This document shows positions 34,795 to 36,232 of a stretch of DNA of 36,232 bases, in pieces. The notes below the pieces were generated by a model that made no database searches, had not been told where the DNA came from, and saw only the letters and a program-made list of their open reading frames with translations. Source of the DNA: Nitrosomonas sp. (lineage in GTDB: Bacteria; Pseudomonadota; Gammaproteobacteria; Burkholderiales; Nitrosomonadaceae); NCBI GenBank assembly GCA_024282035.1, contig JAMWZR010000023.1, positions 1 through 36,232 on the forward strand, in the 5' to 3' direction. Position 1 is the first letter of the stretch. Each line of letters begins with the position of its first letter. The position numbers and the translations under genes are program-made.

Positions 34795-35970
34795 CTATAT
34801 TACTTTGACATCGGGTAATGGAAATCCATTGAAGTTACTTGCATAGGCAGTGGTATAGGCGCCCGCATTGGGAATATAGATGAAATCTCCTTCTTGCAAG
34901 TCGCTCGGTAGCATCAGGTCATGCACCAAAACATCAACGGAATCACAAGTTGGACCTGCTACTGACCAAGGTATTGCATTGCCTTTTCGATCAGTCATAA
35001 TTTCGTAGCGTAGCCCTTCTGTGATTTCAATCACGCCTCCAAACATGCCCGCATCCCAGTACATCCAGCGTTTGCCATTACGAGTAGCTGTGCCGACAAT
35101 TCTACAAACAAAATAAGCCGAATCAGAAACCAAGTAACGACCAGGCTCAGCCATGATTCGTATGGTTTCGGGCAAATCAGCGATCGCTTCATTGATAACT
35201 TGAGCGATAATTTCAATCGATGGTATTGGTTTTACATGACGAACGGGATATCCACCGCCGATATTAAGCAAACGAGGATTCAATCCTGCTGCTTTCATCT
35301 CGGCAAAAACTTTTTTGGCTCGCTCGATACCAACACGCCAGTTTTGAGGATTGCGACATTGAGACCCGACATGAAAGGTTACTCCGGCTAAGTCGGCTTT
35401 CAAGATTGCAGCTTCATGAATAATTTCATGAATATCGGCCAAGTGCGTTCCAAATTTTCCAGCTAGTGGCCAGTCACTACCGATATTCGGTGTGTCGATG
35501 CGCAAATACATTTTGGCATCGGGTTTGACGCTAACAATTTTACGTAACTCTTCAATACTGTCCAATACATACCATTCAACCCCTTTGGCAGCTGCATACT
35601 CGAGATATGCGCGAGATTTCATGGGGTTGCTATAGAAAATTTCGGCAGCTGGTACACCTAATTCGAGTAATAAATCAAGTTCGGCAATGGATGCAATTTC
35701 AAAACCGGTACCTTCTTCGATGAGAGTTTTCAGTACTGTACGGTCAGGGTTAGCCTTAACAGCATAATGCGGATGAACACGAGGCATGGCCGCTTTAAAT
35801 CGTCGAGCTTTTTGTCGGATGATGTGACTATCGACAAGCAGAAATGGACGCTGATAGCCTTTTTTTAATTCATTCTGAACATGCTTAAAGTCCAGAGTTA
35901 CTTCAGGATGTGTGTCGAATAAAACTTCAGATTGATCAGTTTTTTGCAGTGTAGAGGAACGTCTAGACAT
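34795..35970 (-). CDS. Fold III PLP-dependent ornithine/lysine decarboxylase
   Basis: A 391-residue enzyme of the eukaryotic-type ornithine decarboxylase group, which makes putrescine (or cadaverine) with pyridoxal phosphate. The Schiff-base lysine is K72 in HYAVKANPD, the glycine loop is NIGGGYP (236-242), EPGRYL (275-280) binds cofactor phosphate, and the active-site cysteine is C342 in GPTCDSVDVL, contributed from the other subunit. Decarboxylation of ornithine, lysine or both cannot be settled by eye. AAAGGA lies 7 nt before the ATG. A 21-codon frame with a very strong ribosome binding site ends 22 nt upstream, and a promoter lies before that, suggesting control by a leader peptide. Confidence 0.92.
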   Translation of the reverse strand: MSRRSSTLQKTDQSEVLFDTHPEVTLDFKHVQNELKKGYQRPFLLVDSHIIRQKARRFKAAMPRVHPHYAVKANPDRTVLKTLIEEGTGFEIASIAELDLLLELGVPAAEIFYSNPMKSRAYLEYAAAKGVEWYVLDSIEELRKIVSVKPDAKMYLRIDTPNIGSDWPLAGKFGTHLADIHEIIHEAAILKADLAGVTFHVGSQCRNPQNWRVGIERAKKVFAEMKAAGLNPRLLNIGGGYPVRHVKPIPSIEIIAQVINEAIADLPETIRIMAEPGRYLVSDSAYFVCRIVGTATRNGKRWMYWDAGMFGGVIEITEGLRYEIMTDRKGNAIPWSVAGPTCDSVDVLVHDLMLPSDLQEGDFIYIPNAGAYTTAYASNFNGFPLPDVKVI

Positions 35971-35992
35971 GTGAATTTCCTTTTATAAATGA

Positions 35993-36058
35993 CTACGTTT
36001 CAGGAATATGGGAATTGACTTGATCAACTGGAGCAAAATAGTTCTTGATAGCTATCAT
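35993..36058 (-). CDS. Putative 21-residue leader peptide of the decarboxylase gene
   Basis: A complete short frame on the minus strand: ATG at 36058, TAG at 35993-35995, preceded by TAAGGAGGT (36063-36071), nearly a perfect match to the 16S rRNA anti-Shine-Dalgarno, spaced 4-5 nt from the ATG. The product starts MIAIKNYFAPVDQ and ends NSHIPET. It is ahead of the decarboxylase start by 22 nt and lies within its predicted transcript. TGATAGCTATCA (36046-36057), a perfect palindrome, spans codons 1 to 5. A ribosome-arrest or attenuation peptide that senses ornithine or polyamine is the natural hypothesis; a small functional peptide is an alternative. Confidence 0.6.
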   Translation of the reverse strand: MIAIKNYFAPVDQVNSHIPET

Positions 36059-36062
36059 GATG

Positions 36063-36071
36063 ACCTCCTTA
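36063..36071 (-). promoter_or_regulatory. Near-perfect Shine-Dalgarno for the leader peptide
   Basis: The minus strand reads TAAGGAGGT, then CATC, then ATG. This is the strongest ribosome binding site in the window and is much stronger than that of the decarboxylase gene (AAAGGA), which argues that the 21-codon frame is translated. Confidence 0.75.
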
Positions 36072-36103
36072 TCAGTAAGTTTGTTTGTGGTAAAAATGCA
36101 CGC

Positions 36104-36131
36104 ATTATAATCCGCATTGTAACTAAATCAA
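36104..36131 (-). promoter_or_regulatory. Sigma70-like promoter for leader peptide and decarboxylase
   Basis: TATAAT (36104-36109) with TTGATT (36126-36131), spaced 16 nt, on the minus strand. Transcription would start near 36097, giving a leader of about 40 nt before the peptide ATG and about 125 nt before the decarboxylase ATG. Confidence 0.6.
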
Positions 36132-36232
36132 GCGTTTTTTTTCTGTAGCAGATATATTTTTGGGTCTTAGGAAGTTAAAGCGGGTTTAGGCGTAATAATT
36201 TAAGAACTGCAAGGTAGAGATTATCACGACGA

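Follow-up and report, generated by a model that had tools for sequence, protein, structure and literature searches.

Organization of the locus

The window, the whole stretch of Nitrosomonas sp. DNA that was analysed (36,232 nucleotides), carries close to its right end a gene for a probable L-ornithine decarboxylase (ODC) that is preceded by a short open reading frame (Table 1). This frame has its own ribosome site and lies between a promoter and the main reading frame, which is the arrangement expected of a leader peptide. The initial annotation had described the promoter boxes and their separation, the short frame with its Shine-Dalgarno sequence, the distance to the decarboxylase start, and a palindrome over the first leader codons, and each of these is present in the DNA.

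Table 1. Features of the leader and decarboxylase region, with window coordinates.
Feature	Coordinates	Strand	Remarks
-35 box, TTGATT	36131-36126	minus	16 nt from the -10 box
-10 box, TATAAT	36109-36104	minus	
Leader Shine-Dalgarno, TAAGGAGGT	36071-36063	minus	
Leader peptide ORF, MIAIKNYFAPVDQVNSHIPET	36058-35993	minus	21 codons, stop TAG
Leader start and stop codons	ATG at 36058; TAG 35995-35993	minus	
Palindrome, TGATAGCTATCA	36046-36057		12 bp, over the first leader codons; judged incidental
C-terminal motif, I-P-[EV]-T-TAG	35993..36007	minus	conserved; mostly preceded by H or D
Spacer, leader TAG to ODC ATG	35971..35992	minus	22 nt; contains the ODC Shine-Dalgarno
ODC Shine-Dalgarno, AAAAGGAAA	35984-35976	minus	inside the 22-nt spacer
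ODC gene	34795..35970	minus	fold-III PLP-dependent decarboxylase, 391 aa; probable L-ornithine decarboxylase

A simple scan of the window finds three short ATG frames (12-35 codons) with a GGAGG site compared to a mean of 2.5 in 20 mononucleotide-shuffled windows, and three promoter matches were found where 1.7 are expected (633 bases). A single sequence alone proves nothing in this regard, and the leader is considered real because it is conserved. Promoter-like sequences recur as well; a -10-like hexamer is found in 99 of 104 distinct relatives at a median of 46 nt (range 30-139) upstream of the leader ATG, and a TTG..TATAAT pair is found in 91 of the 104 using a loose pattern without a shuffled control.

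At the contig end the window contains a repeat (36156-36232) with ten more matches in the genome, eight of which are 69-82 nt long at 98-100% identity. One copy (L004) adjoins a gene coding for a 434-aa DDE transposase, and the neighbour L010 has a different sequence where the window has the repeat. An insertion sequence thus appears to end roughly 24 nt ahead of the leader -35 box.

The decarboxylase has the fold-III domains PF02784 and PF00278 (Orn/DAP/Arg decarboxylase N and C), and its best solved relative is 2plj, a lysine/ornithine decarboxylase, with ornithine decarboxylases next. It scores 189.5 on the LysA model, below the cut-off of 297.9, and a true LysA is encoded elsewhere in the genome (L230). 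The enzyme is thus most likely a fold-III L-ornithine decarboxylase, as predicted from its sequence. SpeF belongs to the fold I decarboxylase family, and the earlier statement that the two enzymes have unrelated folds is borne out by the two domains and the 2plj relationship. An enzyme of N. europaea bears the label L-ODC in the legend to Fig. 10 of PMC7857480. No fold-I decarboxylase (PF01276) was found in the genome and no SpeA (biosynthetic arginine decarboxylase) scored above cut-off there, and the leader may therefore control the main entry to putrescine. A polyamine aminopropyltransferase is also present (L229). A further fold-III decarboxylase-like gene (L231, G000:C52) lies directly downstream of an acyl-CoA-ligase-like gene, as judged by eye, and may be the exosortase-associated decarboxylase.

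Conservation of the leader and selection on its peptide

ODC orthologues were collected from 61 close relatives (42 matches at E<=1e-60) and 200 genomes of the order (45 matches at E<=1e-90), and the DNA upstream of each was read for the leader, such that orthologues were chosen by the ODC and not by the leader. This gave 77 genomes including the window's own, with the duplicates L044-L047 dropped and G065, whose match is truncated by the end of a contig, left out; the genomes are related and are not independent observations. The leader is present in 58 of the 64 orthologues with at least 65% ODC identity and in none of the 13 below 65%, where identity for some of the 77 was measured on a fragment. 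Leader-bearing orthologues span ten families of the order, as labelled. An ODC orthologue at E<=1e-120 was found in only 2 of 369 genomes of the wider class, both of this genus. Length was counted for 57 of the 58 leaders (the exception is L069, with an ODC match in two pieces); 48 have 21 codons and the rest are within 16 to 24. Of the 58 leaders, 43 match the start region AGGAGGTCATCATG exactly and 49 match it with at most two mismatches, and seven loci of the same genus (L031, L033, L034, L039, L042, L043, and L050) have an altered start region and keep the peptide end.

The six orthologues at or above 65% identity that lack the leader (L067, L068, L073, L075, L076, and L077) are all at 67-72% identity. 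Three of these (L067, L075, and L076) keep the start region AGGAGGTCATCATG exactly but have a truncated or different peptide, and are apparent relics of a lost leader. A tree of the ODC from the 57 of the 77 genomes with long loci, 51 with the leader and six without, requires three state changes, and its deep forks are weak; because of the relics, a single old origin followed by losses is favoured over several gains. L073 (G099) has no leader TAG and its frame extends to 29 codons, ending in a TGA that overlaps the ODC ATG; this lineage may have exchanged arrest for plain coupling, or the assembly may be at fault.

Leaders were also sought without reference to the ODC, in 84,980 species with one genome per species, using a pattern consisting of the start region and P-[E/V]-T-TAG, separated by a gap of 26 to 56 nt that was free in any frame. 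There are 112 matches, of which 111 are in frame, and 107 of these 111 have exactly 21 codons. This ODC follows the leader in 110 of the 112. The stretch of L110, one of the two matches without a seen ODC, ends 132 nt past the leader stop; L195, from the archaeon Thermocladium, was rejected as a chance match that is out of frame and is not followed by any decarboxylase match within its 125 nt of downstream sequence. The other matches are from Nitrosomonas, Nitrosospira, Nitrosovibrio, Nitrosomonadaceae, and betaproteobacterial, burkholderial or proteobacterial genomes, with one labelled Neisseriales. Of 399 genomes of the order, 27 contain a single match to a looser pattern, and none matches its reversed control; the ODC follows all 27, although in L208 (the same genome as L069) the ODC match is in two pieces. 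Both scan patterns presuppose P, T, TAG, and the start region. The 137 leaders comprise 85 distinct peptides.

The stop codon is TAG in all 57 P-x-T leaders of the ODC-based set, for which the search required P-x-T and allowed any stop, and also in L069, the 58th leader. For comparison, TAG ends 12 of the 50 ODC genes at the same loci that are long enough, and 40 of 178 open frames of at least 200 codons. When leaders are chosen by the start region alone (AGGAGGTCATCATG, at most two mismatches), 49 of 54 end in P-x-T-TAG; the five that do not are L067 (7 codons, TAA), L073 (29 codons, TGA), L075 (8 codons, TGA), L076 (23 codons, TAG with another end), and L078 (15 codons, TAG). These five, together with the six orthologues at 67-72% identity that have no leader, indicate that the leader is dispensable. 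The base following the leader TAG is C in 67 of 104, and a C after the stop codon is a poor termination context. A conserved C-terminus and stop codon are as expected of a metabolite-sensing termination-arrest peptide.

Among 89 distinct 21-codon leaders, pN/pS in the leader frame falls from 0.50 over all pairs to 0.243 at up to 10 differences and 0.145 at up to six. The corresponding values in frames +1 and +2 are 1.12 and 1.01 over all pairs and 1.37 and 0.81 at up to 10 differences, with stops present in these frames in 66 and 72 of the 89 leaders, and the reverse frames give 1.16, 0.67, and 0.99. In a 45-sequence subset none of 200 column shuffles is as low as the real frame (0.48 compared to a mean of 0.85). 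The invariance of P and T among the 89 leaders is partly built in, because both residues, and in some searches TAG and the start region too, were search requirements. A search-free check used 41 distinct ODC-first leaders and codons 3-17 only, leaving out every codon touched by a pattern, and gave 0.45 over all pairs and 0.202 and 0.117 for close pairs, the range being 0.62-1.60 for frames +1 and +2 and 0.52-2.08 for the reverse frames. One reverse frame is also lowered (0.67, and 0.52 for close pairs in the search-free set), yet is far above the leader frame. The leader frame is under purifying selection, with pN/pS of 0.12-0.25 for close pairs as opposed to 0.5-2.1 in the five other frames. 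The initial annotation had proposed looking for a synonymous-site excess and held that the leader would fall if its frame or ribosome site were not conserved in close relatives; the excess is found, is specific to the frame, and persists when search-touched codons are omitted, and conservation in relatives (58 of the 64 with at least 65% ODC identity) extends to the frame, its length of 21 codons, the C-terminus, and the stop.

Spacing to the decarboxylase gene and possible modes of action

The distance between leader and ODC varies little. Among 104 distinct leader-plus-spacer sequences, 90 have a Shine-Dalgarno-like hexamer for the ODC that starts no later than +13 (median 12), counted from the T of TAG, and in 14 it starts farther on; the first ATG with a Shine-Dalgarno-like site, its frame unchecked, is 20-29 nt from TAG in 101. 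When the frame is checked, as in the ODC-first set, 54 of 56 loci have the ODC ATG 20-28 nt beyond the T of TAG, with L030 not placed. Toeprint geometry places the leading edge of a ribosome with a stop codon in its A site at about +13, and a ribosome with the leader stop in the A site would therefore sit on or against the ODC site.

Searches for RNA elements gave no candidates. Rfam covariance models have no match at E<=1 in 35700-36232, a scan for intrinsic terminators found none in the leader, and RNAalifold predicts no structure for 46 diverse sequences (energy 0.0 compared to a column-shuffled mean of -0.08), a method to which pseudoknots are invisible. Forty sequences folded singly are slightly less folded than their mononucleotide shuffles (median z +0.75), and the ODC ribosome site has a median unpaired probability of 0.35. 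Single-sequence prediction thus does not show this site to be fully open, but no conserved helix is predicted to hide it. The palindrome TGATAGCTATCA was considered as an operator or a hairpin and rejected; among the relatives listed, only L010, a neighbour with 98% identity to the window, shares it, and it is thus judged incidental, such that no role for it is supported.

What is conserved is the frame, the peptide with its near-fixed length, the UAG stop, and the spacing ahead of one enzyme gene. From this pattern we infer translation of the leader, arrest at release factor 1 (RF1), and occlusion of the ODC site, as well as the ligand and the sign of the effect. The reading to which we assign a probability of roughly one half is that of a cis-acting termination-arrest leader that limits ODC translation, probably as feedback by a polyamine product. 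Leader and ODC would share one transcript, and the leader would act in cis through the ribosome that translates it. The nascent C-terminus, mostly [HD]-I-P-[EV]-T before UAG, would slow termination by RF1, and the ribosome held at UAG would cover or crowd the ODC Shine-Dalgarno sequence starting about 12 nt downstream, lowering ODC translation; with quick termination the ODC site would be free, or the terminating ribosome might re-initiate. Putrescine or a derivative, as a polyamine end product, would be the likeliest signal, and control would then be by feedback. A more specific form, in which polyamine-dependent RF1 arrest at HIP[EV]T-UAG closes the ODC site by occupation and is unrelated to SpeFL, is put forward tentatively, with the odds against it.

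Conservation does not itself separate arrest from coupling or from a peptide acting in trans. Translational coupling alone, in which a strong leader site recruits ribosomes and passes them across 22 nt to the ODC start with no metabolite sensed, would be consistent with the strength of the leader ribosome site, with the short spacer, with the extended frame of L073 whose stop overlaps the ODC ATG as in coupled genes, and with the start regions lacking the C-terminus in L067, L075, and L076. However, coupling requires no set residues, length or stop codon, and as the leader is constrained in all three, coupling alone is inadequate and we regard it as somewhat unlikely. An induction like that by SpeFL, with a stall at the leader stop turning the ODC on and the substrate ornithine being sensed, would place the same logic in the same pathway as in gammaproteobacteria, where SpeFL inhibits RF1-mediated release (PMC8429421). 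Salmonella speF, though, has a long leader, Rho termination, and a structure that hides its ribosome site (PMC6386406), whereas the locus here has a 22-nt spacer, no conserved fold, and no terminator of the intrinsic kind, the kind scanned for, and induction of this type is unlikely. If instead the 21-aa peptide acted in trans, for example by binding the decarboxylase, selection at the peptide level and the adjacency of this ODC to 110 of the 112 pattern matches would be accommodated, but the fixed UAG stop and the tight spacing to the ODC start would have no evident role, and we consider this quite improbable.

Two further explanations were considered. The leader could be a structured RNA element or a DNA-level site that happens to be an open frame, since the start region GGTCATCATGA is highly conserved as nucleotides, even in L067, L073, L075, and L076 where the peptide end is lost. 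The lack of an Rfam match, the alifold energy of 0.0, and the median z of +0.75 speak against this, and the seven same-genus loci in which the start region has changed and the peptide end is retained argue against an RNA-level cause. The frame-specific synonymous excess largely refutes it, and it is very improbable. Lastly, the short spacer might suggest that stop readthrough or frameshifting fuses the leader with the ODC. All three relative frames occur, however, with offsets modulo 3 of 0, 1, and 2 in 15, 26, and 15 of 56, which refutes such a fusion and leaves it practically no credence.

Relationship to other leader peptides

TnaC and SpeFL are established examples of short leaders that arrest termination, and they build their sensors in the ribosome tunnel in different ways; SpeFL acts by termination arrest with RF1 inhibition, and TnaC acts through Rho (PMC8429421). 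The Nitrosomonas leader looks like these termination-arrest leaders but fits neither SpeFL nor the alphaproteobacterial odc1 motif. SpeFL (orf34, upstream of speF in gammaproteobacteria) is likewise a small ORF upstream of an ornithine decarboxylase, but has 34 codons rather than 21. The speF start codon is at nucleotide 516 of its leader, which is controlled by Rho termination and RNase G (PMC6386406). In contrast to that long Rho-controlled leader with its hidden ribosome site, there is a 22-nt spacer here with no conserved fold and no terminator in a scan for intrinsic ones, a difference suggesting that it is the ODC ribosome site that is blocked. Pfam and NCBIfam give no match at E<=10 for the four leaders tried, although, at 21 aa, the peptide is too short for kinship with SpeFL to be excluded.

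TnaC of the tryptophanase operon is also a short leader, of 24 aa, but it ends in UGA (RF2), blocks Rho, and induces a catabolic operon, whereas the leader here ends in UAG with a proline two residues earlier and a 22-nt spacer. Whereas the TnaC and speF leaders act via Rho, the 22-nt spacer here makes site occlusion or coupling the simplest routes. The odc1 motif (uORF-25-1) similarly has a conserved short uORF before an ODC gene, and consists of an 11-aa uORF starting from UUG beside the main UUG, with a hairpin and pseudoknot, in 272 alphaproteobacterial examples (PMC8632094). The betaproteobacterial leader differs in having 21 codons, an ATG start, a separate ribosome site, a 22-nt separation, and no conserved structure as seen by a method blind to pseudoknots. 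That this is an independent leader-peptide system on an ODC, as the initial annotation suggested, is well supported by the conservation, the synonymous excess, the fold-III enzyme, and the absence of Pfam or NCBIfam matches for the four leaders tried.

Eukaryotic polyamine uORFs, among them the polyamine-sensing MAGDIS uORF of AdoMetDC, also encode a short peptide with a C-terminal motif. For the PS* motif of HOL1 and the PPW motif of AZIN1, polyamine stalls the ribosome at the C-terminal motif and expression of the main ORF is lowered (PMC11550727). These systems depend on eukaryotic scanning and translation factors, and no sequence relation to the leader here is claimed. Few bacterial arrest peptides that sense metabolites have, to our knowledge, been described. 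If the proposed feedback is correct, the leader would be the first bacterial sensor of a polyamine end product working as a nascent peptide, and a counterpart of the eukaryotic polyamine uORFs.

Among the matches listed from the open-licence literature (subscription papers and preprints being outside its scope), titles and the starts of abstracts contain no description of this leader, which is real and, within the literature searched, apparently undescribed. Its anatomy, with no conserved RNA fold, no intrinsic terminator, and a 22-nt spacer, leaves few mechanisms. The leader is short and occurs in named strains of Nitrosomonas, Nitrosospira, and Nitrosovibrio together with many uncultured betaproteobacteria. 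A sub-type with D in place of H before the end (DIPET, DIPVT or DLPET) is found in L093, L094, L096, L100, L102, L129, L131, L133, L134, L138, L146, L222, and L224, and could be used to test the role of the H/D position.
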